Of a stretch of 30,093 nucleotides of DNA, positions 3,095 to 30,093 are shown piece after piece. The stretch comes from a virus. The DNA is taken from the IMG/VR virus record IMGVR_UViG_3300003177_000027, positions 1 through 30,093 of that record; one strand, given 5' to 3'. The notes beneath the pieces are model-generated. The model worked only from the letters and a program-made list of their open reading frames with translations, was not told where the DNA came from and did not search any database. Position 1 is the first letter of the stretch. Each line of letters begins with the position of its first letter. Both the position numbers and the translations under genes were made by a program.

Positions 3095-3105
3095 AATTTT
3101 ATTTA

Positions 3106-3121
3106 AATTAAATTTATAAAT
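3106..3121 (+). promoter_or_regulatory. TATA-type late promoter, copy 1
   Basis: Exact 16-mer AATTAAATTTATAAAT (purine-rich BRE-like start plus TATA box). It begins 40 bases before the ATG at 3146, the same spacing as the three other exact copies, which puts the expected start of transcription at or next to the start codon. Confidence 0.75.
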
Positions 3122-3149
3122 TATAAACATATAATATTATTATAAATGA

Positions 3150-3778: not shown

Positions 3779-4483
3779 ATGGTAATAACCCCAAGTTTTA
3801 CGACAAATGTTACAAGTAACTTTACTTTATCATCAGGAACTACATTTGGAACTGCAGCAATGATTGCAGATTCAGACTGGGGAGATTCAACAGCAGTTGG
3901 ACTTTTCTCTAGTTATAATGAAGTTTTTAGAAAATATAAAAGTGGAAACTTAGTAACAGCAGCAGATAAATTCTTCGCAGCAGGTGGAACATCACTTACT
4001 GTAATAAGAGTAGAAGGAGCCACTTCGGCTAAAGCTTCAATTATACTAACAACAGGAGCAACTAACAAATTAACTATTACAGCTTTATATAATGGTACTT
4101 ATGGAAATAATATAACTGTATTATCTGAAGTTTCTGGTTCAGCTAGAAAACTAACTATTTCAGATGGAACAACAACTGAAATTTATACAGATACAACAAT
4201 TGCAGGATTTGTAACACAATTAACGTCTTCAGTTTTAGTTAGAGGAACATCAAATGGAACAGGTTTATTTGATGCTTCAGCAGCAGCAAATTTAACTGGA
4301 GGAGTTAGTGGAACACCTGCAGATGTAGATTATGTAACAGCATTTAATAATTATTTACTAACAGCAGTTTGGGATTACTTAGTTATTCCAGGAAAAACAG
4401 CAAATACATTTCATTTAACATTTAGTGGTTTACTTGATAATAGAGCAGCTAATGAACAGCATCAAATACAAATGGAAGATTAG
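3779..4483 (+). CDS. Tail sheath protein, N-terminal part (frame broken)
   Basis: This is the N-terminal part of the contractile tail sheath subunit, which polymerises around the tail tube. The pattern SSGTTFGTAAMIADSDWGD, then SYNEVFRKYKSG and AADKFFAAGGTSLTVIRV, is typical of sheath proteins, as is the middle region where glycine-rich strands carry surface insertions. The frame ends at TAG 4481-4483 in the middle of the fold, and the rest continues in the -1 frame. A working virus of this type needs an intact sheath, so the break is either a sequence error or a recoded site. It starts two bases after the preceding stop (TAA-AA-ATG). Confidence 0.8.
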   Translation: MVITPSFTTNVTSNFTLSSGTTFGTAAMIADSDWGDSTAVGLFSSYNEVFRKYKSGNLVTAADKFFAAGGTSLTVIRVEGATSAKASIILTTGATNKLTITALYNGTYGNNITVLSEVSGSARKLTISDGTTTEIYTDTTIAGFVTQLTSSVLVRGTSNGTGLFDASAAANLTGGVSGTPADVDYVTAFNNYLLTAVWDYLVIPGKTANTFHLTFSGLLDNRAANEQHQIQMED

Positions 4484-5064
4484 TTAATATTCATTCAGCA
4501 TTATACAATACTGGACTTGCTTCAGATACAGCAAGTTGGTTAGATGGTTCATTTACAGCTTGTGCTTATGCAGGAAGACTTTGTAACTTAGCAGTTAATT
4601 CAAGTCCAACTCAAAAAGCAATTCCAATTACAACAGCTAATTCATTATTAATTAATGATTATAATTCAGCAGAGAGAGAATCTTTAGTTTCAAATGGATT
4701 CACAATATTTGGAAAATTAAATGCTTCAAATAGTTTTGGAACAATTATGGCAATAACTAAATCTGGAGCAACTACAAGATGGCAATTTATGTTAGATTCA
4801 GTAAGGAAAGTTGAATATTTTAAAGAACAAGTATATGCAAAATCAGTTGTATTTTTAGGAGAACCTAATGATGCAACAACAAGAAAAACTATTCAATTAA
4901 GTTTATCAAGTTTCTTTAAAGAAGCAATGGACCAAAGAATGATTAGTAGTTACTCAGTAACAGTAGCTTTAGGAACTGACCCAAGATCAATTAATATTAC
5001 AGCAGGAGTTCAGTTAATTAATGAAACAGATTACATAACATTTAATCTGGAGTTGAGGATTTAA
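4456..5064 (+). CDS. Tail sheath protein, C-terminal part (frame broken)
   Basis: Reading resumes in the -1 frame; that frame is open from 4456, after TGA 4453-4455, so the two frames overlap over 4456-4483. It reads NGRLVNIHSALYNTGL, then SAERESLVSNGFTIFGKL and closes with TDYITFNLELRI, the conserved C-terminal sheath domain. No start codon is needed if the two parts are one protein; an internal ATG at 4747 is probably not a true start. One extra A in the run at 4468-4470 would fuse the frames into a protein of about 428 residues. About 20-25 residues that sheath proteins usually have before the GRLV strand also appear to be absent. Confidence 0.8.
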   Translation, partial: TASNTNGRLVNIHSALYNTGLASDTASWLDGSFTACAYAGRLCNLAVNSSPTQKAIPITTANSLLINDYNSAERESLVSNGFTIFGKLNASNSFGTIMAITKSGATTRWQFMLDSVRKVEYFKEQVYAKSVVFLGEPNDATTRKTIQLSLSSFFKEAMDQRMISSYSVTVALGTDPRSINITAGVQLINETDYITFNLELRI

Positions 5065-5067
5065 TAA

Positions 5068-5484
5068 ATGGCAGCAGCAGCAAATAAACAAGCAGTATCA
5101 CTAAATGATGTGGTAGTAAAGATAGCAGGAAAACAAGTTGGATACATTACAAAGTTAGATTTAAATGTAACTATTAATGAAAACATCTTGTATGAAGCAG
5201 GATCAAAAGGAATGCCTATTGATAGAGTATTTCTTAAAAGAGAAATTAGTGGTTCATTTGATAGAACTTATGTTGACAATGATGTATTAGCTCAACTATG
5301 GGACTTTACATTAAATTCACCAATTGAGTTTGAATTAACAGCTCAAATAGAAGGATTTAATGCTAATGGAAGAGATTTTGTATTGAGAAGATGTGCAATC
5401 AAAGGATTTCCTATTAGTTTAGAGTTAGAATCAGAAACAACACAATCATTTGAATTTTCAGCAATTGGGTTTGATTTCGTTTAA
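5068..5484 (+). CDS. Tail tube protein
   Basis: This protein of 138 residues directly follows the sheath, as in most contractile tails, and forms the inner tube. Features seen: VVVKIAGKQVGYITKLDLNV at the N-terminus (a sheet strand pair), a loop with GMPIDRVFLKREISGSFDRT, and the closing LELESETTQSFEFSAIGFDFV. Length and order of strands match tube proteins of the gp19/FII type. It starts three bases after the sheath stop (TAA-TAA-ATG) and is followed by a T-tract, so it probably ends a highly expressed sheath-tube transcript. Confidence 0.75.
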   Translation: MAAAANKQAVSLNDVVVKIAGKQVGYITKLDLNVTINENILYEAGSKGMPIDRVFLKREISGSFDRTYVDNDVLAQLWDFTLNSPIEFELTAQIEGFNANGRDFVLRRCAIKGFPISLELESETTQSFEFSAIGFDFV

Positions 5485-5536: not shown

Positions 5537-5565
5537 TTAATTCTTATTCATACAGGTTTAGTATT

Positions 5566-5581
5566 AATTAAATTTATAAAT
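5566..5581 (+). promoter_or_regulatory. TATA-type late promoter, copy 2
   Basis: Exact 16-mer AATTAAATTTATAAAT beginning 40 bases before the ATG at 5606. The bases between it and the ATG contain only A and T and are nearly identical to those after the copy at 13035. There is no Shine-Dalgarno site, which fits a leaderless message. Confidence 0.78.
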
Positions 5582-5605
5582 ATAAATTATAATATTATTT
5601 ATATT

Positions 5606-5821
5606 ATGGAACTAACATATGAGACCGAGAAGGTAAAAAACATAACAGTTACAAGAGCTAAGAAACAATACAACTTAGATGCACAATCATTTCTAAAAGG
5701 AGAATGGTTAGAAGAAGTAAGAAAATTATTCAATTATGATAAACTAGATTTATCATATAAAAATGAAGTATTGACATTATATTTTTATAAAGAAACTGCA
5801 GAGGTAATTGAAAATGAATGA
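5606..5821 (+). CDS. Small tail-module protein of unknown function
   Basis: This protein of 71 residues is not recognised. It has a mixed charged composition with a central WLEEVRKLFNYDKLDLSYKN and an acidic C-terminus. It has its own leaderless-type promoter and overlaps the tail chaperone start by 8 bases, so the two are likely co-translated. The place between tube and chaperone suggests a tail assembly role, but nothing in the sequence proves it. Confidence 0.6.
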   Translation: MELTYETEKVKNITVTRAKKQYNLDAQSFLKGEWLEEVRKLFNYDKLDLSYKNEVLTLYFYKETAEVIENE

Positions 5822-6173
5822 AGATAAAGTAATAACCTTTGCTAAAGCAAAGAAAGAAAAAATTCCTGGATTATATTTTGAAGGGGAATTTGTTTGTGTA
5901 GTTGCAAGAAATGGAAATTCTTACAAACTAAAAGAATTAATAACAAAAGATTTGAAAGCTTGTTATACAGCAGCAACAAAAGTTTCTGGAAGAGATAGAG
6001 CAGGAGAACCAATTAAAAAGATTGATGAGTCAGTTGCAAATTCATTAGTTATTTCAAGAAGTTGTGTTGAACCTGAACTTGATGATTCATTTAAAGTAGA
6101 TGAATTACCAGGAAGTGAATCAATGTTATTGTCAAAAGCAGTGGAGGAGTTATATAACATAAAAAATCTTTGA
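5814..6173 (+). CDS. Tail assembly chaperone, zero-frame product (gpG-like)
   Basis: This protein of 119 residues lies between the tube and tape measure genes, the fixed place of tail assembly chaperones, which hold the tape measure protein during tube assembly. It shows the family pattern: a C-terminal half with KVSGRDRAGEPIKKID, a short helix ending in SRSCVEPELDD, then a leucine-containing helix SMLLSKAVEELYNI. The ATG at 5814 is preferred over an in-frame TTG at 5808. The last codons run over the slippery heptamer at 6161-6167, so a fraction of ribosomes should move to the -1 frame and make a longer product. Confidence 0.75.
   Translation: MNEDKVITFAKAKKEKIPGLYFEGEFVCVVARNGNSYKLKELITKDLKACYTAATKVSGRDRAGEPIKKIDESVANSLVISRSCVEPELDDSFKVDELPGSESMLLSKAVEELYNIKNL
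6161..6167 (+). promoter_or_regulatory. Programmed -1 frameshift site A AAA AAT
   Basis: The heptamer A-AAA-AAT is in the correct phase (X XXY YYZ) two codons before the zero-frame stop. Slippage by -1 leads into an open frame that ends at 6349. A 7-bp inverted repeat (AATCTTT 6165-6171 and AAAGATT 6182-6188) overlaps the site; it is too close to be a standard stimulator and may be chance. Confidence 0.75.
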
Positions 6174-6349
6174 AGTCTGCTAAAGATTATTTAGAAAGTA
6201 GTAATTTGGAATTTGCTATTTCAACTTTAGCAGGCTTAACAGGAAGATTACCTTGTGAGCTAAGACAATTTACAACTTCAGAAATAGCTGAAGGAATAGA
6301 ATATCATAAAAAATATAATGAGGAATTAAAGAAAGCAAATGGCAACTAA
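6161..6349 (+). CDS. Tail assembly chaperone, -1 frame extension (gpT-like)
   Basis: This is the -1 frame continuation of the chaperone: 60 residues after the slip, giving a fused product of about 178 residues from 5814. It contains LEFAISTLAGLTGRLPCEL followed by SEIAEGIEYHKKYNEEL, which matches the usual T-domain layout (a short 'LP..L' turn followed by a Y-containing helix). It has no start codon of its own near the slip site. It overlaps the tape measure start by 11 bases, as in other tail modules. In lambda the equivalent GT protein binds the tape measure and tube subunits; that role is assumed here by analogy. Confidence 0.72.
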   Translation, partial: KKSLKSAKDYLESSNLEFAISTLAGLTGRLPCELRQFTTSEIAEGIEYHKKYNEELKKANGN

Positions 6350-9135: not shown

Positions 9136-9750
9136 ATGGACTTAAGTATATTAAAATCAATAACAAATAATATTAAAGAAAAAATAGAACATGTTTTATT
9201 TTCTACTTTTATGAAAATTCAAGTAAAAGAAATTACAGAAACTAATGGACAATTATTCATTAAAGGAATAAATGTATATACAAGAATTGGAATAGAAAAT
9301 ATTAAACTGTCTAGTCCTCATCTTAGCAATGGTTCAGGTATAGTAAGATATCCTAATGTTGGAGATTTTATTTTAGTATTACATTTATTTGGAGAATATA
9401 TTATGATTGCAAGTATTTATGATGACTTTAGTTTAATTCAAGATAATCAAGTTAATATGACAAACAAAGATGAAATGCTTTTAGTAAACAAAGCTTGGGG
9501 AAGTCATATAAGATTTCTAACAGATGATATGATTATAATAAAAACTAAATCTGGTTCTAAGATAAAACTAAATGAAACTACTGGAGAATTCAAAGTATTT
9601 GATAAAAATAATTATGGATTTCAGTGTGATGGAAATGGTAATATAAACATTTATGGAAATGTAACATTTAATGGAACTGTGACAGGACTTACCTCGGCAA
9701 CTGGTGGAACTGTCACAGGAACAAATCCAAAGAATCCAGGAACATTTTAA
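9136..9750 (+). CDS. Baseplate spike protein (gpV-like)
   Basis: This protein of 204 residues follows the hub and fits the central spike (P2 gpV or Mu gp45 family): an OB-fold domain with VKEITETNGQLFIKGINVYT and VRYPNVGDFILVLHLFGEY, then a short repetitive beta-region whose strands alternate in IKTKSGSKIKLNETTG and GNINIYGNVTFNGTVTG, the pattern of a trimeric beta-helix needle. The C-terminus lacks the usual HxH iron site, so a separate tip protein may exist or be dispensable. It pierces the host envelope on contraction. Confidence 0.75.
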   Translation: MDLSILKSITNNIKEKIEHVLFSTFMKIQVKEITETNGQLFIKGINVYTRIGIENIKLSSPHLSNGSGIVRYPNVGDFILVLHLFGEYIMIASIYDDFSLIQDNQVNMTNKDEMLLVNKAWGSHIRFLTDDMIIIKTKSGSKIKLNETTGEFKVFDKNNYGFQCDGNGNINIYGNVTFNGTVTGLTSATGGTVTGTNPKNPGTF

Positions 9751-9764
9751 TTAAATTTATAAAT
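9749..9764 (+). promoter_or_regulatory. TATA-type late promoter, copy 3
   Basis: Exact 16-mer AATTAAATTTATAAAT that overlaps the spike stop codon and begins 40 bases before the ATG at 9789. No Shine-Dalgarno site. Confidence 0.78.
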
Positions 9765-9788
9765 ATTAATTTTAATATTTATATTATA

Positions 9789-12457: not shown

Positions 12458-13030
12458 ATGAGCTCAAAAAAAATATTAAGAAATCTTCCATCACATTGGT
12501 CAGGTAAGAATATAGATGATTTTGCTAATGCAGTTATTGCAGAATTAGATTTATTTGTAACTGAAACTAACAATGTTAAGAAAACTATTCAACTTGGAAC
12601 AGCAGATGGAATTTATCTAGATGCTATTGGACAAATTTTTGGCTTAGGTAGAAATACTGGAGAAACAGATTTAGTTTTCAGAAGTAGAATAAAATCTTTC
12701 TGGACAACAATAAATTCATCAGGAACAAGTGATGATATTAAATCTGTAATAAGCAGAGTTACTGGAATTGCAACTTCAGGAATTACTGTAACAGATATAA
12801 GCCCAGCAAAAATAAAAATACAATTTGATGTTGGAACTAATTTTGATTTAATAAATACAGCAGGAGCAGCAATAAATTCTAGTAAAGCATCTGGAGTTTA
12901 TACAATTCTTGAAGCAACATCATCAACTGTTGATACAACTACAACTTCAGATATAATTTCAGTAAGTATTACAATTTTAGATAGAACTTATGGATTACTT
13001 AGATACGGAACTATTAATTCAACTTATTAA
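12458..13030 (+). CDS. Baseplate protein, gpI/Mu gp48-like
   Basis: This protein of 190 residues follows J, the place of P2 gpI or Mu gp48, which links the baseplate to the fibres. The N-terminal helix (IDDFANAVIAELDLFVTE), then ADGIYLDAIGQIFGLGRN and the repeat FRSRIKSFWTTINSSGT are the usual DUF2313-type pattern: 'LD.IG...G..R...E.D..FR.R'. The C-terminal half is strand-rich and ends with a Gly-Leu-Leu-Arg-Tyr segment. It starts one base after J. A 45-base gap follows, which holds the next promoter. Confidence 0.7.
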   Translation: MSSKKILRNLPSHWSGKNIDDFANAVIAELDLFVTETNNVKKTIQLGTADGIYLDAIGQIFGLGRNTGETDLVFRSRIKSFWTTINSSGTSDDIKSVISRVTGIATSGITVTDISPAKIKIQFDVGTNFDLINTAGAAINSSKASGVYTILEATSSTVDTTTTSDIISVSITILDRTYGLLRYGTINSTY

Positions 13031-13034
13031 AATT

Positions 13035-13050
13035 AATTAAATTTATAAAT
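13035..13050 (+). promoter_or_regulatory. TATA-type late promoter, copy 4
   Basis: Exact 16-mer AATTAAATTTATAAAT that begins 40 bases before the ATG at 13075. The following A/T-only bases match those after the copy at 5566 almost base for base. Confidence 0.78.
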
Positions 13051-13074
13051 ATAAATTATAATATTATTAATATA

Positions 13075-13494
13075 ATGGTAAAAGATACTCAAGAAGTAAC
13101 AGGAAGAATCAGAATTTACGAAAATGATTCACTTGTCTTAGATGAAAAAAATATTGTTACTACTTTAGGTAAAAGTCTATACGCTTCAATTTTAGCTGGA
13201 ACAGGAACAATACCTTCACATCTTGGAGTAGATACATCAGCTACTGTTTATACTGCAGGTTCAACAGTTTTAACAACTGAAGTTATAAGAAAAGGTATTA
13301 ATTTAATTAATACTGCAGCAAATCAAGTTAATTTTGAATTTATTATTTTACCTGGTGAAGCAGTAGGTGCTTGGAATGGTATAGGTTTATTTAATGCAGC
13401 AACAGCAGGAACAATGAGTAATGTTCATAATTTAGCATACACACATAACACAGCGGATGCAATTAAAATAATTTGGAGTGTTATAATTAATTAA
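13075..13494 (+). CDS. Tail fibre-region structural protein
   Basis: This protein of 139 residues lies in the tail fibre region. It resembles small phage proteins with a conserved order: N-terminal strand pair (TGRIRIYENDSLVLDEKN), helix with SLYASIL, LGVDTSATVYTAGSTVLTTE, RKGINLIN, and a late EFIILPGEAVGAWNGIGLFN. Such proteins are often annotated as tail or fibre-associated, and the fold is probably a beta sandwich on the baseplate rim. The role is inferred. It has its own leaderless-type promoter and leads a transcript of fibre genes up to 15950. Confidence 0.55.
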   Translation: MVKDTQEVTGRIRIYENDSLVLDEKNIVTTLGKSLYASILAGTGTIPSHLGVDTSATVYTAGSTVLTTEVIRKGINLINTAANQVNFEFIILPGEAVGAWNGIGLFNAATAGTMSNVHNLAYTHNTADAIKIIWSVIIN

Positions 13495-13497
13495 AAA

Positions 13498-13569
13498 ATG
13501 GAAGAAATAAAAGGAATATTAAATTGTGCTTGCGTAAGTATAAAAGATGATGGTAGGAGGTGCTTCTGA
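13498..13569 (+). CDS. Possible 23-residue peptide, coupled to the next gene
   Basis: A short open frame begins three A after the preceding stop (the local TAA-AAA-ATG pattern) and ends in TGATG, overlapping the next start by one base. It encodes 23 residues with three cysteines (NCAC...RCF). It includes the Shine-Dalgarno site of the next gene. It may be a real peptide or only a leader that carries ribosomes to the next start. No family recognised. Confidence 0.4.
   Translation: MEEIKGILNCACVSIKDDGRRCF
13555..13562 (+). promoter_or_regulatory. Strong Shine-Dalgarno site
   Basis: AGGAGGTG with 8 bases between AGGAGG and the ATG at 13569. It decides the start of the fibre gene over the in-frame upstream TTG-type codon at 13560, which lies inside the site. 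Confidence 0.75.
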
Positions 13570-15113
13570 TGGTGTATCGAGCAGTAGAAGGAAATATAGG
13601 ATATGCAGTTGAAATAAATCAAGGAATTATTTCAGGTAAAAATGCATGGATAAGTGGAGCATTAAGTTCTGTAACAGGAACTGACATGAATGTAGCTATT
13701 TCAAGTGGTTCATTATTATATAATAAACTTCCAATTAATATTACTGGTGCAACAGTTACAATTTCTGCAGCTGACACAGTTAATCCAAGATTAGATTTAA
13801 TTGTTTGGAATGGATCAGCATTAGTTGTGATTCCCGGAACACCAAATGTAAATCCAGTTCCTGCAGATTATAATATTGATACAACAGTTGTATTAGATAT
13901 GGTTCTTGTAAATGCAAATGTAACAGCAATTACTTCAGGTAACATAACAGATTATAGAACTGAAGCAGTTATTGGTGGAGGACTTAAAAATTTTACACAA
14001 TCCTTTACTAACGTTACAGCAGTAGTTGTAAATCATAATTTAAATGATTTACAACCTACAGTAACAGTTGTTGATAGTACAAATAATATATTAAATCCTT
14101 CAAGCATAACAATAACAAATGCTAATTCATTAGTTGTTAATTTTGCAGTACTTACAACTGGAGTTATTTCAGTTAAAGGAGGACAGTTTACAGCACAAGC
14201 ATCTGGAGTTCCAGTTGCTTCAACAAATGGAAATATGTTAGTTGATAATGGAACTTCTTATACTGCATTACCAGTTGGAAGTTCAGGACAAGTATTAACA
14301 ACAGATGGAACAAATGTATTATGGGGTCAAGGTTCAGCACCTACAGCTAAACATACTGCATTATTATCATATAGAACATTACAAGCAAATAATACTTTTG
14401 TAAATGGAGATGGTTTAGTTGTAGATGAATTCACAACTGCAGCAGGAACTAATTCAACTAAAACTTCAGGTATAGCTGCATTTGGAGGAACTAAACTTGT
14501 ATTACCTAATGGAGCAGGAACACATACAACTCCTTTACCTAATGCTTCTGGATCTACAGTAGGTACAGGATTAGTTTTTACTATGTCTACTGTAAATAAC
14601 GTATTTATTAATAGTTTAACTGCAACATTAACAAATGGATCTTTTTATGTAAAATTTATTTATACTGATGGTACTTCATACCAATCTGTATTATTAGGCT
14701 CCACAGGAGGAAGTTTTACTTTTACTGGTTCTAACCCTAATCCTACAAAATCAGTTGCACAAGCAGGAATAGGTATAGATCCAATTTATGGAGGAACAGT
14801 TAGTTTTGCTTCAGGGTATTATACTTCAAATAATTTTGCTTTATCTGGAACTGCAGTTTGTAATTCAAATACTCAAACATTGACAGGAGCAGAAAGAAAT
14901 TTATTAGTTTATTCTGATAAAACACTTCCAACAAATACAAGTATGACTGTAGATATTTCAGATGGAACAACAACATTAGCTGCCCAACCATTTGATACTG
15001 TAATTGATATTAGTACATTAGGCGCAGGAACTTTAAGTTTAACATTTAACTTAGCTACTACTGATACAGCAGTTACTCCAAGCTTGAAAGGTTATGGAGT
15101 TTATATTAATTAA
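13569..15113 (+). CDS. Tail fibre or receptor-binding protein
   Basis: This protein of 514 residues has an N-terminal attachment region typical of baseplate-linked fibre proteins (GNIGYAVEINQGIISGKNAW and INPRLDLIVW-type strand: NPRLDLIVWNGSALVVIPG), a linker with NFTQSFTNVTAVVVNHNLND, a repeated phage-type motif around GSSGQVLTTDGTNVLWGQG, and a large C-terminal beta domain likely to bind the host. It is rich in Thr, Ser, Asn and Gly and has no catalytic motif. The start is fixed by a strong Shine-Dalgarno site. It is followed at two bases by the next gene. Confidence 0.65.
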   Translation: MVYRAVEGNIGYAVEINQGIISGKNAWISGALSSVTGTDMNVAISSGSLLYNKLPINITGATVTISAADTVNPRLDLIVWNGSALVVIPGTPNVNPVPADYNIDTTVVLDMVLVNANVTAITSGNITDYRTEAVIGGGLKNFTQSFTNVTAVVVNHNLNDLQPTVTVVDSTNNILNPSSITITNANSLVVNFAVLTTGVISVKGGQFTAQASGVPVASTNGNMLVDNGTSYTALPVGSSGQVLTTDGTNVLWGQGSAPTAKHTALLSYRTLQANNTFVNGDGLVVDEFTTAAGTNSTKTSGIAAFGGTKLVLPNGAGTHTTPLPNASGSTVGTGLVFTMSTVNNVFINSLTATLTNGSFYVKFIYTDGTSYQSVLLGSTGGSFTFTGSNPNPTKSVAQAGIGIDPIYGGTVSFASGYYTSNNFALSGTAVCNSNTQTLTGAERNLLVYSDKTLPTNTSMTVDISDGTTTLAAQPFDTVIDISTLGAGTLSLTFNLATTDTAVTPSLKGYGVYIN

Positions 15114-19995: not shown

Positions 19996-20268
19996 TTAAA
20001 ATTTAAATTTTTTATACAAAGGACATCTTGGTTTATAATTACAATAATTACATAACCAAGATTTTTTGCAACTCCAAACTCCTGATTTTTGACAGTCTTT
20101 CATTTCAGTTTTTATTCTAAATAATTCTTTGCTAACCCATTTCATATCTTCATCTGTTACAGGAAGAGTTTCAAATACTCCATGATCAATAAAATAAATT
20201 CCAACATAATCAATATTATTTTTTTCATTTCTCATATAAATATAACAAGCATCTTTTTTTTCCATCAA
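19996..20268 (-). CDS. RecB/Cas4-like nuclease, C-terminal part (frame broken)
   Basis: This frame continues the nuclease after a frame break at the A-run around 20254-20261. It reads DYVGIYFIDHGVFETLP, then a helix, and ends in CKKSWLCNYCNYKPRCPLY, the C-terminal cysteine cluster of Fe-S containing Cas4/AddB-type exonucleases. The TTG/ATG at the start is probably not used as such; removing one A would fuse it to the upstream part. The segment between DFDGKK and DACYIYM should hold the D/E-Y-K-T-G catalytic strand and is absent in both frames. Confidence 0.65.
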   Translation of the reverse strand: MMEKKDACYIYMRNEKNNIDYVGIYFIDHGVFETLPVTDEDMKWVSKELFRIKTEMKDCQKSGVWSCKKSWLCNYCNYKPRCPLYKKFKF

Positions 20269-20632
20269 AATCTACTCTATCCCACATAACAACTAAATCT
20301 TCTTCAGCATCATAAATCTTTTTTTCAACAGATTCAGGTTTCATAAATTTAAATTGTTCTTGCCAATCAATAAATTTATTTACTTGGTCAACATATTTAT
20401 TAGAATTATCTAATTTCATAATAGTTTCTTTAAATTTTATTTTATCATCTGATAAATTAGCTGGTTTTGTATATAGGTCTTCAAAGATTTGATGAAGTTC
20501 ACTTCCTCTTTGCATTGCTTCATTTGTAACAAACTTTTCTGGAAAGTTTTGTTCAAACCAATATTTCTTCGGACAAGTCAAATAACTATTAATTTTTGAC
20601 TTTGACAATCTTTTTGTAATATCTTTTTCCAT
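20225..20632 (-). CDS. RecB/Cas4-like nuclease, N-terminal part (frame broken)
   Basis: This part shows the start of a RecB-family PD-(D/E)XK exonuclease: KINSYLTCPKKYWFEQ with the first Fe-S cysteine, RGSELHQIFEDLY with the motif I histidine, and MWDRVDFDGKK with the metal-binding aspartate. The frame then runs off into a short non-homologous end and stops at 20225. The next motif, the E-x-K pair on the adjacent strand, is missing from both frames, so the protein as written would be inactive. Such enzymes process DNA ends in replication and recombination. It starts one base after the miniprotein stop. Confidence 0.68.
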   Translation of the reverse strand: MEKDITKRLSKSKINSYLTCPKKYWFEQNFPEKFVTNEAMQRGSELHQIFEDLYTKPANLSDDKIKFKETIMKLDNSNKYVDQVNKFIDWQEQFKFMKPESVEKKIYDAEEDLVVMWDRVDFDGKKRCLLYLYEK

Positions 20633-22701: not shown

Positions 22702-22860
22702 TTATACATTTATAAATTTAAGTATATCTTTTCCTCTGTATTTTTTTACTTTTAATTTAGAAGGAATAACTATTCCTTCCTTAGCAGCACAAGTTGGTCC
22801 ATAACAAAGTTTAATTGAATCTTCTGATTTCAATTCTCTATTACATCTTTTACATTTCAT
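22702..22860 (-). CDS. DUF6011-like zinc miniprotein (52 residues)
   Basis: It overlaps the DpdA stop by four bases (ATGA). CKRCNRELKSEDSIKLCYGP then C matches the DUF6011 pattern: CxxC followed by 'L..EDS...G.GP.C'. The last part is basic and strand-forming (KLKVKKYRGKDILKF). Its function is unknown. Its coding 3' end contains the promoter of the polymerase gene. Confidence 0.65.
   Translation of the reverse strand: MKCKRCNRELKSEDSIKLCYGPTCAAKEGIVIPSKLKVKKYRGKDILKFINV
22708..22723 (-). promoter_or_regulatory. TATA-type promoter of the polymerase gene
   Basis: Reading on the minus strand, ACTTAAATTTATAAAT differs from the late 16-mer by one base and begins 47 bases before the polymerase ATG at 22676. 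It lies inside the end of the preceding miniprotein gene. A second AT-run with TATAAATAT follows at 22689-22705. Confidence 0.6.
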
Positions 22861-23993
22861 TTTGTAAACCCAAATAAATTTTTAGTTTTATCTATTTGAT
22901 TTCTTCCATCATAAAAATATGAATTATATTTATGTTTTAATTCATCAAATTTCTGTGGTGATTTTAAAACTTCATCTGTAAATTTAAATGCAGTCTTTGC
23001 TTTATTTGTTATAAATTCATTAATGTATTCTTTAAATAATTCTCTATTTCCAACAAGGTTAATTAAATTTTTAAAATATCTTAATGAAATATATAAATTA
23101 TGTAAAGATAATTTAGAACCAGGTATTAATTTATCATCTTTCAAATAATCTTCTACAGTATTTTTATTACATACTGGACAATCACAAGGAACTTTTTTCA
23201 ATCCATGATTTTCTCTCCCAAAGTTAGCAATAGTTTTATTTGGTTTTTCTATCCAAAACTCTCTCCTTTTAGCCCCTGATGTATAACTACTACTATCCCA
23301 AGTTGTAATTATATCTTTCCTTTCAGATAAAATATATAACATTAAAGGAACAGTAGATGTTCCAGATAAACCTAAAAAATGAAATCTTTTATTTTCAGGA
23401 ATATTTCTAATAATCCACAAAGACATTTCAGCAATAACAAAAGGATTACTATTTTTATTTGATAATGATATACCATCAAAATCATCTAAAGTTTTTCCAA
23501 GTTCATTTAAGACCTTAACATTATAATCTAATGTTTCAAATGTTGAACCATGAACTACTAAAATTAATTTAAACTCTTTATTAGTTCTTATATCTAACAT
23601 TTCACAAGCATTTTTCATATTTTGATATATTAATTTTTCAAACTTGTCTTTAGGTAAAGGTGCAAAGTTTTCTGGATTAACTGGTGGAATATCATATGTA
23701 AAACCTTCATCACAATTTAATTCTAACCATTTCATTACTTTTAAATGATCTAAATATTCTTGCTGTGTCAATGCTTGAAAACCACCACTATCTCCTAAAA
23801 TTTTTATTTCTTTAGGAAGATTATATTCCTTTCTGATATCCACAGAATTCATTCCATAAAAAGCAGAAATTAATAAAGCTGGATATTGAAAATAACTATA
23901 TTCATCCCAATGTTGTAATCCTTTCGTTTTAGATAATTGAATTAATCCAGGCATTGCTGCTGGATAATAATACATATTTTTATTTAATTTCAT
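22857..23993 (-). CDS. dpdA: DpdA-like DNA 7-deazaguanine transglycosylase
   Basis: This protein of 378 residues is a tRNA-guanine transglycosylase relative of the DpdA type, which swaps guanine in DNA for preQ0 or a related base. TIM-barrel marks: LGDSGGFQALT with Asp68, FTYDIPP with Asp101, LVVHGS, FLGLSGTSTVP at 207-217, and TWDSSSYTSGAKR with Asp233. The zinc site CDCPVC (270-275) with a later LHNLY histidine fits the TGT family. It overlaps QueC by four bases, so base synthesis and insertion are coupled. It differs from true TGT in the spacing after Asp233 and by the absence of tRNA-binding domains such as PUA. Confidence 0.85.
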   Translation of the reverse strand: MKLNKNMYYYPAAMPGLIQLSKTKGLQHWDEYSYFQYPALLISAFYGMNSVDIRKEYNLPKEIKILGDSGGFQALTQQEYLDHLKVMKWLELNCDEGFTYDIPPVNPENFAPLPKDKFEKLIYQNMKNACEMLDIRTNKEFKLILVVHGSTFETLDYNVKVLNELGKTLDDFDGISLSNKNSNPFVIAEMSLWIIRNIPENKRFHFLGLSGTSTVPLMLYILSERKDIITTWDSSSYTSGAKRREFWIEKPNKTIANFGRENHGLKKVPCDCPVCNKNTVEDYLKDDKLIPGSKLSLHNLYISLRYFKNLINLVGNRELFKEYINEFITNKAKTAFKFTDEVLKSPQKFDELKHKYNSYFYDGRNQIDKTKNLFGFTK

Positions 23994-24691
23994 ATTTCAT
24001 ATCCCCAATTTTTTAAAACTTTTAATGTTTCTTTTGTTCTTTTTTCTGAATATTTATTATTTTTAAATTTTTCAAGATATTCTGGAATTCCATTATATTT
24101 AGTAATATCTTTATTAAAAAAGGAAATATCTAAATCTAATGCAGACATAGCAATTGCTTTCCTAAAGCAACTTGGGCAATTTCCACATTGACCTTCTTCT
24201 TCAGAATAACAACTAATACTTAGTTTCAATAAATCATCTGCATTTTCAACATTATTAATAAACCAATCAATTATTTCTACTTTAGACATTTTCCAAAAAG
24301 GAGAATAAATTTCAACTGGTTCTTCATTAACAATAGAGAGACATTTTGACATAGCTTCAAATGCTTCTGGATTTTTATCACAAACTTTATCATCTTCAAT
24401 TCCACCTAAAATTATTCTGTTACCAAAATTATTAGCAATACAAGATAAAATTAAATTTCTATTTTTAACAAAAGCTTTTTCTCCTTCTTCAAATTGTCCT
24501 AAGTTAATTCCTTCAATAATTTCACAATTAAAATCTGGAATTAATTGTTTAAATTTATTTATATTTTCAATCTCTTTATTACTATATTTAGTATCTAAAT
24601 TAACATAAACTGATTTAGGTTGATTCATATAAAACCAACAAACTAAAGAATCTACTCCACCACTAAATAATAAAACATCTTTAGTTTCCAT
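23990..24691 (-). CDS. queC: QueC, 7-cyano-7-deazaguanine (preQ0) synthase
   Basis: This protein of 233 residues converts 7-carboxy-7-deazaguanine to preQ0 with ATP and ammonia. The ATP pyrophosphatase loop SGGVDS lies at 10-15, and the C-terminal zinc site CYSEEEGQCGNCPSCFRK holds four cysteines, as in QueC. The start is METKDVLLFS at 24691; a longer start would run through the HAD gene. It overlaps HAD by 11 bases and DpdA by four. No amidotransferase domain (as in Gat-QueC) is attached, which argues for preQ0 itself as product. Confidence 0.9.
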   Translation of the reverse strand: METKDVLLFSGGVDSLVCWFYMNQPKSVYVNLDTKYSNKEIENINKFKQLIPDFNCEIIEGINLGQFEEGEKAFVKNRNLILSCIANNFGNRIILGGIEDDKVCDKNPEAFEAMSKCLSIVNEEPVEIYSPFWKMSKVEIIDWFINNVENADDLLKLSISCYSEEEGQCGNCPSCFRKAIAMSALDLDISFFNKDITKYNGIPEYLEKFKNNKYSEKRTKETLKVLKNWGYEI

Positions 24692-24989
24692 TTTGAAAAT
24701 CCTCCAACAACATATTTTTGTCATCAATATATACATCACCCAAAGGCTTTCCCATAATTAATTGATTAAATCTAATTTCATTTTTTATTAACCATTCTTT
24801 AGTTACTTCATAATCCCAAGAAGGTCTTGAAGTAAAGAACACAATATAATGACCTTGTTTAAATAGATTATTAACAACTTTTATTGTTTCTTTAATAGGT
24901 TTTCTATTAATTAAATTTTCGTAGGAATAATCATTAATATCTGGCATTTCACAAATTGTATCATCAATATCAATAATGTATTTAACCAT
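24681..24989 (-). CDS. HAD-family phosphatase
   Basis: This protein of 102 residues has the HAD motifs: YIIDIDDTIC with nucleophile Asp7 and acid Asp9, FFTSRP (motif II), and GKPLGDVYIDDKN (motifs III-IV). The compact size without a cap domain resembles the short phosphatases of nucleotide or polynucleotide substrates, such as the phosphatase half of viral PNKP. Start at 24989 (MVKYIIDID), overlapping the methyltransferase end by 8 bases. Its position between methyltransferase and QueC suggests a part in nucleotide or base metabolism, but the substrate is unknown. Confidence 0.75.
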   Translation of the reverse strand: MVKYIIDIDDTICEMPDINDYSYENLINRKPIKETIKVVNNLFKQGHYIVFFTSRPSWDYEVTKEWLIKNEIRFNQLIMGKPLGDVYIDDKNMLLEDFQNGN

Positions 24990-25677
24990 TTTTAACAACA
25001 CTCACAAATATTAAATTATCTGTCATATTCCAATATTTCTCAATTGTAAATCCATACTTGTCACACAATAATTCTACACCTTTTCTTGTAATACAAAAAC
25101 AATGTTCTGGATGTGCTAATACAGCATTAATATTGCTTAAAGGATTATCTCCATCATCTGTAATAAAAATAAATTTTCCACCTGGTGTTAAAATTCTATT
25201 AACTTCTTTAAATACATTATGAATGTCATTAATATGTTCAATTACATTATTCATGACTACATTGTTATAAGTTTCATTATTAATTAATTTAACAGTATCT
25301 TCAAAAGTTCCTGCAAAGAATTTTATATTTTTATTATCAATGACTTCGTCAGATCTAATATCTACTAAATCTTGAATAAGAACTTGTCTCCCTTCCTTAG
25401 CAATATGTTTAGCAATTAATCCATTTGCTGCTCCAAATTCAACAACATTTCCTGGAATCAAACAAGTCTTAATATAATTATATTGATTATATTGTTCAAT
25501 TGGAACCCATTCCCATTCTGGTTTAGTTATATCAAACCAGTAATCTTTATCAATATATTCAGTTTGATAATTAACATCAAAAATTCTATATAATGTACTG
25601 CAATTATTACATTTATAAATCTCTGGAGTTATCCATGACCCTTTACTTTTACAAACTCTACATAATTCGTTTTTCAT
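24982..25677 (-). CDS. Zinc-ribbon class I SAM methyltransferase
   Basis: This protein of 231 residues combines an N-terminal zinc ribbon (Cys6, Cys9, Cys23, Cys26) with a class I methyltransferase. The SAM-binding loop is VVEFGAANGLIAKHI (about 78-92), the central strand VVMNNVIEHINDIHNVFKEV is the Methyltransf_11/23 signature, and LTPGGKFIFITDDG follows. The domain order resembles small-molecule or sugar methyltransferases rather than DNA methylases, and no DPPY or ENV motif is present. It lies within the preQ0 cluster, so a role in decorating the modified base, or in unrelated glycan chemistry, is possible. Confidence 0.7.
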   Translation of the reverse strand: MKNELCRVCKSKGSWITPEIYKCNNCSTLYRIFDVNYQTEYIDKDYWFDITKPEWEWVPIEQYNQYNYIKTCLIPGNVVEFGAANGLIAKHIAKEGRQVLIQDLVDIRSDEVIDNKNIKFFAGTFEDTVKLINNETYNNVVMNNVIEHINDIHNVFKEVNRILTPGGKFIFITDDGDNPLSNINAVLAHPEHCFCITRKGVELLCDKYGFTIEKYWNMTDNLIFVSVVKNG

Positions 25678-25679
25678 TT

Positions 25680-26147
25680 TTAAAATAAACTCTTTCCTCT
25701 CTTCTCTATTTTTTTCATTTTAGTTTTATCCATTTTTAAAGTATCTAACCCTAATTTTTTTCTTTCTTTATTATCTAAACCAAATTCATTTGCTAATTTA
25801 TTTAACTCTACTTTATCTTTAGTTAAATGTTCAACATATTTTCTTATTCCAATAACATCATTTGTTCCTAGATAATATTTCTTTTTAAGTAAATTTAATA
25901 CTATATCATATTTAGTAGCATCAAATTTTTTTGCTTTCATATAAGGAGTAAATCCTCTATACTTTAATCCTATAGAAAGAACATTAATTAATATTCTACT
26001 ATCACAAGTAAAAAACATTCTATTTACTTTACTTGCAATTTCAAAATTTTTTTCATTTCCACTACTCCAAATCATTAAAGGATATAACATTTTATAATCA
26101 TCCTTTAACATATTTTGATTATGAACTCTTTTTATAGCATTAAGCAT
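25680..26147 (-). CDS. Putative clamp-loader partner (T4 gp62-like)
   Basis: This protein of 155 residues overlaps the RFC gene end by 8 bases, the slot held in T4 by gp62 directly behind gp44. It is helical and basic (last ten residues [11 protein letters not shown]). The segment [20 protein letters not shown] at about 86-105 resembles the conserved region of gp62 (LAKRYQVNTNDAI as I recall it), and the first half has the same long-helix layout. T4 gp62 is the non-ATPase subunit completing the loader. The match is by eye and by gene order; without a profile search it remains a proposal. An alternative is an unrelated helical protein. Confidence 0.5.
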
Positions 26148-27033
26148 TTTTTATTAATAATTTTATTTTAATTAAAAGTTTTGTGAATTCCATTTCTTGA
26201 CATACTACGGAATTTAATTTACTTCCAGTTTCTGCAATTTCAAATATTACTTTAATAATATTATTAATTGAAGATCTATTTTTCCAAACATAATCATTTA
26301 AACTTATTAAAGTTTGTTTATAATCAATATTGGAATCTAATACCCATTGTCTTATTTCATTAACCCCTTTTGTTCTTATTAATTCAAATAATTTATTAAT
26401 TTCTAATTCTTCTTTTATAACATGTTCAAATTTAATATCATCATGTTCAAAAGATAAAGATTCTAATTTATTAATAGCACTTCTGATATCAGGATAAGTA
26501 ATTTCAACAATTTTATCTACTGCTTTATTTTCAATTAATATATTTTTAACTTCAATAATATGATATAATCTACCAGAAATTTCTTCTTTCTTTGGTAATT
26601 GAAATTGAAACTTTTGACATCTACTTTTAATAGGTTCTGTAATTTTATTAATATAGTTACAAGTTAAAATAAATCTACAATTACTATGATAAGTTTCCAT
26701 AGTATTTCTTAAAGCATTTTGTGCGTCATTAGTCAAAGCATCTGCTTCATCTAAAAATACTAATTTAACTTTCCCTTTACTTGAAACAGTAGAAGCAAAT
26801 GTTTTAATTTTATCTCTGATAACTTCAATCCCTCTTTCATTGGAAGCATTAAGAGTTAAACAATCTGTAGCTAATTTTTCTTTAATAATATGAGCAGTAG
26901 TTGTTTTCCCTGTTCCTGCTGAACCATAAAATAATAAATGAGGAATATCATTTTTATTTACATAAGAAATAATAGATTGATTTAATCCAATTACATCTTT
27001 AAATTCTCTTGGTCTAAATTCATCTACTAACAT
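26140..27033 (-). CDS. rfcS: Replication factor C small subunit (clamp loader ATPase)
   Basis: This protein of 297 residues is an AAA+ clamp loader ATPase that opens the sliding clamp. Seen: [13 protein letters not shown] box, Walker A GSAGTGKT (37-44), the archaeal-type [19 protein letters not shown], Walker [11 protein letters not shown] (92-101), [11 protein letters not shown], sensor [12 protein letters not shown] and the arginine finger motif SRC at 137-139. The sequence style is that of archaeal and eukaryotic RFC rather than bacterial DnaX. It follows PCNA at 8 bases and overlaps the gp62-like gene, giving a compact clamp and loader operon. Confidence 0.92.
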
Positions 27034-27041
27034 TTTTTAAT

Positions 27042-27767
27042 TTATTCCTCTACTTTATCTAATGGACTAACTACAATTTTACTTAAGAAGTTTTCATTCT
27101 TAATTGTAAACATAATTGGTTTATAATCACCAGCAACTGAAAGAGTAATTTCATCTGTTAATACAGAAACTGCATCTTTCAGAATATCACTAAATTTAGT
27201 TTCAAAATCTTTATAATCCAAATTGATAGATTCTTCAATTTTATTAAATTTATTTTCACCTGTAATAATTACAAATGAATTATTTTTATTTCTAATTTCA
27301 AAAGAATCACTTCCAATAATTCCACTATTCTTAACTGCTTTAATAAAAATATTTGAAGACATTTTTATTCCTCCATCAAACATATCTACTAATTTATCTT
27401 TATGTTCTTTTGGTAAATTTGTTTCAACAAATTCTGGTTTCATGTTTACTAAATTAGCTACTTTGTTTTCATCTTTAACTACTAATGAATTTTCTGTAAT
27501 CTCTAATTCTACAACTCCATTAAATGTTCCTAAAATATTAATTAATAATTTAGTATCTTTAACTCCAATTTTAATATCATCTCCACTAATAGTTTTACAA
27601 ACTATTTTATCTAAAATTGATAATGTTGCTCCAACATTGTTTTCCATTACAGCATTAATTTCAATTCCATTATTTGTAAAATTAATTAATAATGACTCAA
27701 TCTTACCATTTAAAGTAGATGTGCTTAAAAAATCTTTTAGTGTTTTTGCTTCTAATTTTATTTTCAT
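27042..27767 (-). CDS. pcna: PCNA-like sliding clamp
   Basis: This protein of 241 residues has the length and two-domain layout of archaeal and viral PCNA. Seen: N-terminal LKDFLSTSTL, SLLINFTNNGIEINAVM with strand-turn-strand like the PCNA start, the domain joint near LPKEHKDKLVDMFDGGIKM, then second-domain strands with SFEIRNKNNSFVIITGE and the closing AGDYKPIMFTIKNENFLSK. The trimeric clamp would tether the polymerase. It is the first gene behind a promoter and is followed by its loader. No PIP box proteins were looked for in detail. Confidence 0.85.
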   Translation of the reverse strand: MKIKLEAKTLKDFLSTSTLNGKIESLLINFTNNGIEINAVMENNVGATLSILDKIVCKTISGDDIKIGVKDTKLLINILGTFNGVVELEITENSLVVKDENKVANLVNMKPEFVETNLPKEHKDKLVDMFDGGIKMSSNIFIKAVKNSGIIGSDSFEIRNKNNSFVIITGENKFNKIEESINLDYKDFETKFSDILKDAVSVLTDEITLSVAGDYKPIMFTIKNENFLSKIVVSPLDKVEE

Positions 27768-27799
27768 TTTTGTTATTAGTATAGATTTTATCTATAAAT

Positions 27800-27815
27800 A
27801 TATATTTATTTAAGT
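27800..27815 (-). promoter_or_regulatory. TATA-type promoter of the PCNA gene
   Basis: On the minus strand ACTTAAATAAATATAT begins 48 bases before the ATG at 27767 and shares ACTTAAAT and position with the polymerase promoter (47 bases). It overlaps the AT-rich gap after the zinc miniprotein and continues into TTTATAG. Confidence 0.55.
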
Positions 27816-27817
27816 GT

Positions 27818-27943
27818 TTATAAATCTTTTGTTTTAAAATATTTTTTAAAACATTTTTCACAATAAAAAGTAGTAAAGTTCATAGGATAATACTTCTTAC
27901 TTACTTTCTTACATTTACTACAGATATAATTATCTTTGTCCAA
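27818..27943 (-). CDS. Zinc-ribbon miniprotein (41 residues, TTG start)
   Basis: The frame begins with TTG one base after the QueE stop (TAA-A-TTG), the same arrangement as most junctions here. It has two CxxC knuckles, CSKC and CEKC, 16 residues apart, and a basic aromatic tail (FKKYFKTKDL), a minimal zinc ribbon. Function unknown. It ends just before the PCNA promoter. Confidence 0.55.
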   Translation of the reverse strand: MDKDNYICSKCKKVSKKYYPMNFTTFYCEKCFKKYFKTKDL

Positions 27944-27944
27944 T

Positions 27945-28703
27945 TTAAACTCCTGTTTTTTTATTCCACACTGTTACGTGAAATCTATCTGAAACTCTTA
28001 CTCCTTCTCTACAAGCAAGGTCTATTAACCAATTATATTTTTTACTTATTTCTTCTTTAGTAACTCCTTCTGGCATTAATATAATTTGACTCTTTCTAAT
28101 TAATCCTTTATCAATATATTGTTCTTTAATTTCATTCCAATCTTCTTCACAAGTAATTACAAATTTAAACCATGAATTTTTTAAATCTCTTAATTGTAAT
28201 AAAACTTCTTCTCTATATCTTAATATAGTTTTATTTCCTGAGTTTGATAATTTAGGTGAATTGTTCCAACAATCTACATTATTAATTAATTGTAAAGTTG
28301 GTTTTAATACAGCTTCATTTTCAATTTCAATATAAGGTTTAAATCCAAATCTTTTTACAAATTCAATTATCAAATGTAAAACTTTATCTTGTTGCATTAA
28401 AGGAGAACCACCTGTAATAATTAAATGGTGACCATTTCTCAAATCTTTATCAACTCCATTTTCTTCCATTAGGTTTAATATTTCTGTTATAGAATAATTA
28501 GATCCACCTTTCCAAACTTCTAAAGTGTCACACCACTTACAAGATAAAGTACAACCATTTAATCTTAAAAAGGTAGCTGGAACTCCAGTATTTATTCCCT
28601 CCCCCTGGACAGTGTTACTAAACATTTCTGCTACTCTAATTGAAACTCCTTCAACTTTTCTATTATCAAATTTATCTGAATCTTTAATTATTGTTTTTAC
28701 CAT
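27945..28703 (-). CDS. queE: QueE, 7-carboxy-7-deazaguanine synthase (radical SAM)
   Basis: This protein of 252 residues turns 6-carboxytetrahydropterin into 7-carboxy-7-deazaguanine with a 4Fe-4S cluster and SAM. The substrate and cluster region NTVQGEGINTG, FLRLNGC and the CxxxCxxC cluster Cys51, Cys55, Cys58 are intact, followed by LIITGGSPLMQQ (GGEP-type motif with Ser) and the conserved SPKLSNSGN. The C-terminal strand RVSDRFHVTVWN matches QueE. It overlaps the phosphoribosyltransferase gene by 20 bases. It is the third step of the preQ0 route. Confidence 0.9.
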   Translation of the reverse strand: MVKTIIKDSDKFDNRKVEGVSIRVAEMFSNTVQGEGINTGVPATFLRLNGCTLSCKWCDTLEVWKGGSNYSITEILNLMEENGVDKDLRNGHHLIITGGSPLMQQDKVLHLIIEFVKRFGFKPYIEIENEAVLKPTLQLINNVDCWNNSPKLSNSGNKTILRYREEVLLQLRDLKNSWFKFVITCEEDWNEIKEQYIDKGLIRKSQIILMPEGVTKEEISKKYNWLIDLACREGVRVSDRFHVTVWNKKTGV

Positions 28704-29073
28704 TTTCTATATAATCTGCTTTACTACTTTCTTCTGTTTCCCATGGAAAGACTATCCATTGATTTACTTCTTTTGCACTAACTAAATTTTCATGTGCAAA
28801 TTTATTTGTTAATACAGCACAAGTATAGCCATTATTTAAATATTTATCCAATGTAACTCCTTTGTCACAAATATCATCTACAACCAAACATTCAAAAGGA
28901 TGCCCTATTTTTGTAACTAATGGAATATTAGTTAAATGTGATAAATATACTGCAGGAATTAAACCTCCTCTTGGAACTCCATAAATAGATTTAATATTTT
29001 TTAATTTAACTTTCTTTATTAACTTTTCACAAAGCAATTCCATTTCAGACCAAGTCATATAATACTTATTCAT
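28684..29073 (-). CDS. Purine-type phosphoribosyltransferase
   Basis: This protein of 129 residues has a type I phosphoribosyltransferase fold: YGVPRGGLIPAVYLSH (the pyrophosphate loop) and the PRPP-binding VVDDICDKGVTL at 64-75, close to xanthine-guanine (Gpt-like) enzymes. The hood region is short. It overlaps QueD by four bases and QueE by 20, so it belongs to the preQ0 operon. It may recycle purine bases, for example guanine displaced by DpdA, back into nucleotides; this link is inference from position. Confidence 0.75.
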   Translation of the reverse strand: MNKYYMTWSEMELLCEKLIKKVKLKNIKSIYGVPRGGLIPAVYLSHLTNIPLVTKIGHPFECLVVDDICDKGVTLDKYLNNGYTCAVLTNKFAHENLVSAKEVNQWIVFPWETEESSKADYIENGKNNN

Positions 29074-29231
29074 TTTTCATATATTACTAAACTGTTAGGA
29101 GTTTCATTTACTCTTAATTTAGTTATTTTTATTCCTACATTTTTAAATTCAGGTTCAATTATTTCAAACCAATATTTTGCTAAATTTTCTGCAGTTGGAA
29201 TAAAATTAACTATTTCTAATTTAGCACAAAA
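29070..29231 (-). CDS. queD: QueD, C-terminal part (frame broken)
   Basis: After the break at the T-run near 29228-29231 the frame reads FIPTAENLAKYWFEIIEPEF, then KITKLRVNETPNSLVIYEK, the typical QueD C-terminus with the PTAEN and ET substrate-binding motifs. It ends at TGA 29070-29072, overlapping the next start (ATGA), so its reading frame is fitted into the operon. One more T in the run would join it to the N-terminal part. The usual block with LDHxxLN lies exactly at the break and is missing. Confidence 0.75.
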   Translation of the reverse strand, partial: FCAKLEIVNFIPTAENLAKYWFEIIEPEFKNVGIKITKLRVNETPNSLVIYEK

Positions 29232-29413
29232 TCAATAACCATTCCTTCTTGAGGATTTCCTTTTTCATCAATTACATTTCCATTGACACATACTTCAATA
29301 TGATAACGATGACCATGACAACTACTACAAGGACCAGGTTTTCCACCTAATACTTGAGTGATTACTCTATGTCCCATATCAATATCTATACTTCTTCTAA
29401 TTTCTTGATTCAT
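29216..29413 (-). CDS. queD: QueD, N-terminal part (frame broken)
   Basis: QueD (6-carboxytetrahydropterin synthase) makes the second intermediate of preQ0. This part has the zinc ligands (DMGHRV, then HGHRYHIEV) and the catalytic cysteine region PGPCSSC, and continues to EGMVIDF. It then runs into TAG at 29216. In family members about 30 residues separate IDF from PTxEN and contain the catalytic Asp-His of LDHxxLN; here only about a dozen do. As written the enzyme should be inactive. Overlap with the FolE stop (ATGA) and an AAGGAG just upstream set the start. Confidence 0.75.
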   Translation of the reverse strand: MNQEIRRSIDIDMGHRVITQVLGGKPGPCSSCHGHRYHIEVCVNGNVIDEKGNPQEGMVIDFVLN

Positions 29414-29982
29414 TTTCTCCTTGTAAAATCTAAAAATTCTTGTTTTGATTCAACCAACATAATTCCTTTCAATGCAGTAGTTGTCATCTTACCTTCTTTT
29501 TTAATTCCTCTCATACATTTACAAGTATGAGTTCCTTCCATTAATAATCCCATACCAAGTGGTTCAACTCCATCTTCAGTTGTTAGAACTTTCCACAATT
29601 CATTAACAATTTGATGAACTAATCTTTCTTGAACTTGTAATCTTGCTGAATAATATTCAACTACTCTTGCAACTTTACTAAGCCCAATAATATTTCCATT
29701 AGGTGCTGGAATATAAGCAAACCAATACTTTCCAAAAAATACAGCCATGTGATGTTCACATTGGGAATAGAAAGTTCCTGTATCTGTAATCATTTGGTCA
29801 TAATGAATACCATCATCATTATTAGGAAAAGTTGTAATTTTAGGTTTTTGATTTTTATCGTAACCTCTAAATATTTCTTTCCACATTTTAACTACTCTTT
29901 TAGGAGTATCTTGTAATCCTAACCTTTCTGGATTTTCTCCAATTGCTATTAACATTTCTTTTACTAATTTTTCTTGTTCCAT
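29410..29982 (-). CDS. folE: FolE, GTP cyclohydrolase I
   Basis: This protein of 190 residues makes dihydroneopterin triphosphate from GTP, the first step of the preQ0 route. Seen: LGLQDTPKRVVKMWKEIFRG, the zinc motif QCEHHMAVFFGK with Cys75 and His78, IPAPNGNIIGLSKVARVVEY, and the second zinc Cys156 in CKCMRGI. The ATG at 29982 is chosen because it lies one base after the preceding stop (TAA-A-ATG, the common pattern here); an in-frame ATG at 30006 would lie inside that gene. Confidence 0.92.
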   Translation of the reverse strand: MEQEKLVKEMLIAIGENPERLGLQDTPKRVVKMWKEIFRGYDKNQKPKITTFPNNDDGIHYDQMITDTGTFYSQCEHHMAVFFGKYWFAYIPAPNGNIIGLSKVARVVEYYSARLQVQERLVHQIVNELWKVLTTEDGVEPLGMGLLMEGTHTCKCMRGIKKEGKMTTTALKGIMLVESKQEFLDFTRRK

Positions 29983-29983
29983 T

Positions 29984-30093
29984 TTATTTAAGTTCTTTCT
30001 CTTCAATAACAGATATTAAATCTTCTAATAAACTATTTGTTCTAAACAAAGGTTGGTCTGTATGACATAGAGAATCATCTATACTTCCTAATC
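29984..30093 (-). CDS. Unknown protein, C-terminal end only
   Basis: The frame is open from the right window edge to TAA at 29984-29986 and gives the last 35 residues of a gene that starts outside. The visible part (LFRTNSLLEDLISVIEEKE) is helical and acidic at the end. It is too short to assign. The one-base junction to FolE shows that it belongs to the same operon. Confidence 0.55.
   Translation of the reverse strand, partial: LGSIDDSLCHTDQPLFRTNSLLEDLISVIEEKELK

Follow-up and report, generated by a model that had tools for sequence, protein, structure and literature searches.

The G/GT programmed frameshift of long-tailed phages, as found in lambda G-T, is said to have been described by Xu, Hendrix and Duda in 2004. 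Of the two lambda products, gpG attaches to the tape measure, and gpGT, through its T part, brings in the tube protein (PMC5009743). Frameshifts of this kind have also been published for archaeal viruses, namely psiM2 (A AAA AAG), psiM100 and phiCh1, according to the statement in PMC3483164 that cites earlier work; HVTV-1 and HCTV-1/2/5, with -1 G/GT frameshifts (PMC8211752); and Hardycor1, with the heptamer G GGA AAT (PMC7911831). A +1 version has been proposed for HSTV-2 and the HF1 group (HSTV-2: PMC8211752). The archaeal virus frameshifts are presented as likely, or as apparent from the sequence, and the experimental proof of archaeal programmed -1 frameshifting comes from one cellular gene, fucA1 (PMC8211752, PMC5009743). 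This S. solfataricus gene shifts by -1 at A-AAA-AAT, with a putative stem-loop (PMC8211752). The psiM2 site was also found independently in our analysis, with A_AAA_AAG at 13712 in ORF19 (13209-13945). Its -1 frame gives a 76-aa T-like extension, the heptamer is followed after about 20 nt by a strong stem, and the frameshift is unannotated in the record.

The locus described here is a probable further example of this known kind of frameshift, and the phenomenon itself is not new. The initial annotation of this DNA had expected it to extend the G/GT arrangement to a virus with archaeal-type signals, a step that the reports on psiM2, psiM100, phiCh1, HVTV-1, the HCTVs and Hardycor1 had already taken. 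Its contribution lies in the AT-rich virus that carries it and in a notably complete cassette of heptamer, stem and Shine-Dalgarno-like element. The window, that is, the whole stretch of DNA analyzed, is the 30,093-base virus record IMGVR_UViG_3300003177_000027 (26.6% GC). The + strand of its left half encodes a contractile-tail module, and genes for replication and 7-deazaguanine lie on the - strand of its right half. The gene for G sits between those of the tail tube and the tape measure, as membership of the G/GT family needs (Table 1), the tape measure being assigned mainly from synteny; the tube protein is the presumed partner of the T domain. As in lambda-type G/GT genes, a small chaperone lies 5' of the tape measure gene, an X_XXY_YYZ motif is found near its end, and a -1 extension runs into the tape measure start. 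The locus differs from them in that one 71-aa ORF intervenes between tube and G, that T is unrecognizable by sequence, and that it is known from sequence alone. Family searches with the 71-aa ORF gave nothing below E 0.01. The archaeal virus cases share function and position with our locus, and also the -1 type except in HSTV-2 and HF1, but they belong to viruses of methanogens or haloarchaea and, where stated, use other heptamers. The fucA1 gene has the identical heptamer A-AAA-AAT, but it encodes a cellular enzyme in which the fusion is the functional product, with no G:GT stoichiometry.

Table 1. Features of the tail module and the G/GT locus, in window positions
Feature	Position	Strand	Basis or remark
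Tail sheath gene, frame-broken	3779..5064	+	phrog_279 matches both halves; break at 4456-4483
Tail tube protein	5068..5484	+	Pfam Phage_tube_2 E 7e-5; phrog_985, phrog_290
Promoter-like element TTAATTAAATTTATAAATATAAATT..., archaeal-type	5558..5605	+	Directly 5' of the operon with G, T and tape measure
Copies of promoter-like element TTAATTAAATTTATAAATATAAATT	5558-5605, 9741-9788, 13027-13074, also 1594-1645, 3099-3149		AT-rich, shortly 5' of ATG
71-aa ORF between tail tube and G	5606..5821	+	ORF list
G-like tail assembly chaperone, 119 aa, XkdN-related	5814..6173	+	phrog_389; profile against shuffles; alignment
Internal Shine-Dalgarno-like GGAGGAG	6143..6149	+	Sequence; 11 nt upstream of heptamer
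TAA stop in -1 frame	6155..6157	+	Closes -1 frame upstream; confines possible shift to 6158-6170
Slippery heptamer A_AAA_AAT	6161..6167	+	Sequence, phase
Putative T domain in -1 frame, 60 codons + stop	6167..6349	+	Readable only after the shift; open frame, codon score
Putative stimulatory stem-loop	6173..6237	+	13-bp stem 6173-6185/6225-6237; inner hairpin 6196-6204/6213-6221
Probable tape measure protein, 397 aa	6339..7532	+	Position, length, tape-measure PHROG at E 0.48 (weak)

The G gene begins with the ATG at 5814, and its 3' end reads TAT AAC ATA AAA AAT CTT TGA, with the TGA at 6171-6173. Its overlap with the -1 frame is only 13 nt long (6158-6170) and contains the heptamer in the correct X_XXY_YYZ phase, with CTT as the single sense codon before the G stop, so that the phase and the proximity to the stop given in the initial annotation hold. 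From 6167 the post-shift frame reads TCT TTG AAG..., that is, SLKSAKDYLESSNLEFAISTLAGLTGRLPCELRQFTTSEIAEGIEYHKKYNEELKKANGN, and stops at 6347-6349. The frame is thus open for the 60 codons up to the tape measure start that had been claimed for it, and the frames give the predicted fusion its claimed length of 178 residues (118 + 60). The end of T overlaps the tape measure ATG (6339) by 11 nt. Past the G stop the -1 frame contains no stops in 57 codons, compared with 7 and 8 in the other two forward frames. An opening of this length was matched by 0.3% of base shuffles and was reached in none of 5904 in-gene -1 runs. The codon score of the T frame was 0.26, which falls in the range of real genes (mean 0.33, sd 0.12), compared with a mean of -0.21 for non-coding or wrong-frame sequence; 10% of the wrong-frame windows scored above it.

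An open frame in this position could also be a separate small gene, translated without slippage from a start of its own at TTG 6170 or TTG 6206, and a 59-aa ORF does open at TTG 6170. However, the T frame has neither an ATG nor a GTG near its 5' end, GGAGGAG lies 20 nt from TTG 6170, beyond the ordinary initiation distance, and the 13-bp stem would cover the stretch just after this TTG. We therefore regard a separate T gene as very improbable and treat T as a probable frameshifted extension of G. When the T part was compared with a T-domain profile, 67 of 3000 shuffles reached the same score. Pairwise comparisons with known T domains gave shuffle p-values of 0.01-0.95, the best being about 0.01-0.04 without correction, and neither the profile nor the pairwise comparisons yielded a significant match to known T domains. 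The wording 'T-domain-like sequence' used previously is accordingly unsupported by sequence alone. We base the T-domain assignment on position, length and coding score, and do not claim homology of T.

We then considered how often such a heptamer would be expected by chance. Of the 8080 codon positions in the window, 85 carry an in-frame X_XXY_YYZ motif, and 14 of the 85 are A_AAA_AAT. Because these motifs are so common in frame at the GC content of the window, the heptamer alone is weak evidence. Simple arithmetic from these counts gives the chance of an in-phase heptamer at the three possible positions of the 13-nt overlap as about 3% for any heptamer and about 0.5% for A_AAA_AAT. An identical A_AAA_AAT also stands equally far from the stop of the replication factor C gene (26140-27033, - strand), where no long -1 frame follows. 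This case is a warning that heptamers can arise by chance, and for this reason we dropped the heptamer by itself as sufficient proof. Taken together, the heptamer phase, the 13-nt overlap, the open -1 frame and the downstream stem are well beyond chance.

The initial annotation had drawn attention to a 7-bp inverted repeat over the heptamer. The repeat (AATCTTT/AAAGATT, 6165-6171/6182-6188) does exist, within a 12-nt imperfect pair. It is weaker than a 13-bp stem that had been overlooked, with which it competes, and judging from ribosome geometry it should be unable to form while the ribosome is on the heptamer. The relevant structure is instead the 13-bp stem, which consists of 12 Watson-Crick pairs and one G-U pair and begins after a spacer of 5 nt, the right spacing for a G/GT frameshift. 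The stem-loop at 6173-6237 has a folding energy of -22 kcal/mol, and the 100-nt stretch has a z-score of -3.3 relative to dinucleotide shuffles. It is the strongest fold found downstream of any of the 85 in-frame heptamers and ranks about fifth in stability for its size on both strands of the whole window. Of 5000 synonymous recodings of the encoded peptide, only 7 folded as stably. No match to an Rfam family was found in the window. Upstream of the heptamer, the spacing of GGAGGAG corresponds to the geometry of the dnaX stimulator. However, GGAGG occurs 20 times on this strand in the left 16 kb, mostly within genes; because it is not rare inside the genes of this virus, GGAGGAG is only suggestive, and moderately significant by position only.

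We also compared the locus with the XkdN family of phage tail proteins. The match of G to phrog_389 ('tail protein XkdN-like') is weak, with an E-value of 0.0015, and similar scores arise by chance in whole-genome scans; against a profile of phage XkdN proteins, G scored above all 3000 shuffles. A search with a sheath half-gene led to Brevibacillus phages, in which the order is sheath, core tail, XkdN-like, small ORF and tape measure. The order in the window (sheath, tube, small ORF, G, T, tape measure) agrees with that of XkdN phages such as Abouo and phiC2, and the order sheath-tube-XkdN-T-tape measure is shared with XkdN-like chaperones of Brevibacillus, Clostridioides, Geobacillus and Streptococcus phages. 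We read 15 XkdN-type loci, 14 of which have G and T in different frames and one of which (EJ-1) is continuous. In all 14 split loci, A_AAA_AAC lies within 7-10 nt of the G stop and the -1 extension is 48-65 aa long, and RNA structure follows the heptamer in most. The Lys-Asn pair encoded by the slip site (K117 N118) is invariant in the 13 aligned G sequences and is shared by the G of the window. The window differs from these loci in having A_AAA_AAT instead of A_AAA_AAC, one extra sense codon before the stop and the 5-nt spacer; its G is 18-28% identical to XkdN-like proteins, and its virus has archaeal-type replication genes. By these comparisons, G resembles the XkdN-like tail chaperones. 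The alignment of XkdN-type G sequences was too divergent to serve as a scan query, and a single-sequence AlphaFold model of G was uninterpretable (pLDDT 37).

The XkdN comparison also bears on two further explanations. RNA polymerase might slip on the A6 run and produce mixed mRNAs, some with an extra A; the run lies in an AT-rich context, and other systems are known in which runs of A cause such slippage. However, six A's are short for efficient slippage, such a mechanism does not need a stem at ribosomal spacing, and the site of the XkdN family, A_AAA_AAC, is a heptamer for tRNA slippage. Transcriptional slippage is thus possible but less economical, and we give it hardly any weight beside slippage by the ribosome. 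The main and serious rival is a one-base indel, in which a base was deleted from the A6 run by sequencing or assembly error or by real mutation, and G and T are in truth one ORF with a run of seven A's. A base-count error in this run is possible because there are two other frame breaks in the contig: the sheath gene changes frame in the direction that G/T does, and the reading frame of a Cas4-like gene is interrupted at an A8 run. In addition, the public record of Streptococcus phage EJ-1 (721-1317) contains an XkdN-type G and T in one continuous frame. However, an indel leaves two things unexplained: that the break coincides with a heptamer in perfect phase, followed after 5 nt by a 13-bp stem, and that the same place carries A_AAA_AAC in every split XkdN-type gene; the sheath break, unlike the G/T break, has no heptamer. 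We therefore consider an indel improbable, and a programmed frameshift the better reading of the G/T break.

These other frame breaks have features of their own. The two frames of the sheath gene are related by a shift in the -1 direction, with no slippery heptamer in their overlap (4456-4483), and the break is probably a contig indel or a real mutation. The Cas4/RecB-like nuclease gene (19996-20632, - strand), named by eye from its cysteine motif, is divided at the A8 run between two frames that overlap at 20225-20271; this split may come from an indel in the homopolymer, or the gene may be another frame-shifted one. In EJ-1, one additional A, located upstream of what was once the slippery site, joins G and T into a single frame, unlike in its close relative MismyG.

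Next, we looked for relatives of the virus and for indications of its host. In IMG/VR, queries with G, baseplate J and tube found no close relative; the RFC query found one virus, which has replication proteins alone in common; a polymerase fragment found one short contig; and a transglycosylase fragment and the promoter repeat found no relative. The 371 genomes searched from the phylum of Woesearchaeota likewise yielded no close relative. A baseplate J search of this phylum gave one hit, in a neighbourhood without a tail module, and a sheath-family search of it gave no close relative; phrog_389 hits there were low-scoring, lay inside long unrelated frames and were taken as chance. The RFC scored 229 bits against the archaeal RFC small subunit model, under the cut-off of 303, and the best genome match was a Woesearchaeota contig (48%). 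PCNA and RFC are related to those of one other virus; the family A polymerase is not host-specific. The 65-nt promoter-like element 5' of the operon with G recurs before 9789 and before 13075 (75-77% identity) and at 1594 (68%), and has a TATA-like box about 25-30 nt before the ATG. These repeats would be promoters if their position is a guide, suggesting leaderless genes with archaeal TATA boxes. Together with the RFC and PCNA genes, they make an archaeal host likely but unproven. At 22857-30006 (- strand), genes for GTP cyclohydrolase, QueE, QueC and a tRNA-guanine-transglycosylase-like protein adjoin PCNA and RFC, suggesting 7-deazaguanine modification of the viral DNA.

We conclude that this contractile-tailed virus, whose replication genes are of archaeal type, very probably carries a G/GT chaperone gene with programmed -1 frameshifting. 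This was the central proposal of the initial annotation, the case for which proved stronger than first described, and it is supported by the gene order, the heptamer phase, the Shine-Dalgarno-like element, the spacer and stem, and the XkdN layout. According to this proposal, most ribosomes would read G (119 aa) and terminate at 6171, and a minority would pause at A_AAA_AAT. The 13-bp stem, lying at the mRNA entry channel, would aid this step, and the upstream GGAGGAG may contribute by pairing with 16S rRNA. The Lys and Asn tRNAs would then re-pair one base back (AAA/AAA), and the slipped ribosome would read 60 more codons to give GT. By analogy with lambda, G may coat the tape measure and GT, by its T part, may recruit tail tube subunits, and the efficiency of slippage would set the G:GT ratio.

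In its layout, the locus agrees with the G:GT tail-chaperone logic common to bacterial and archaeal tailed viruses. The site, with the heptamer of fucA1, a clear stem and a Shine-Dalgarno-like element within the size of a reporter, is also a good test of whether archaeal ribosomes use bacterial stimulators. A more tentative suggestion, which we hold with low confidence, is that GGAGGAG, A_AAA_AAT and the 13-bp stem at 5 nt form a three-part dnaX-like cassette working on AT-rich, possibly DPANN (Woesearchaeota-like), archaeal ribosomes; a programmed frameshift reported in this lineage did not turn up in the literature searched. If such a cassette does operate in an archaeon of this kind, then archaeal ribosomes would respond to the same two stimulators as bacterial ribosomes.
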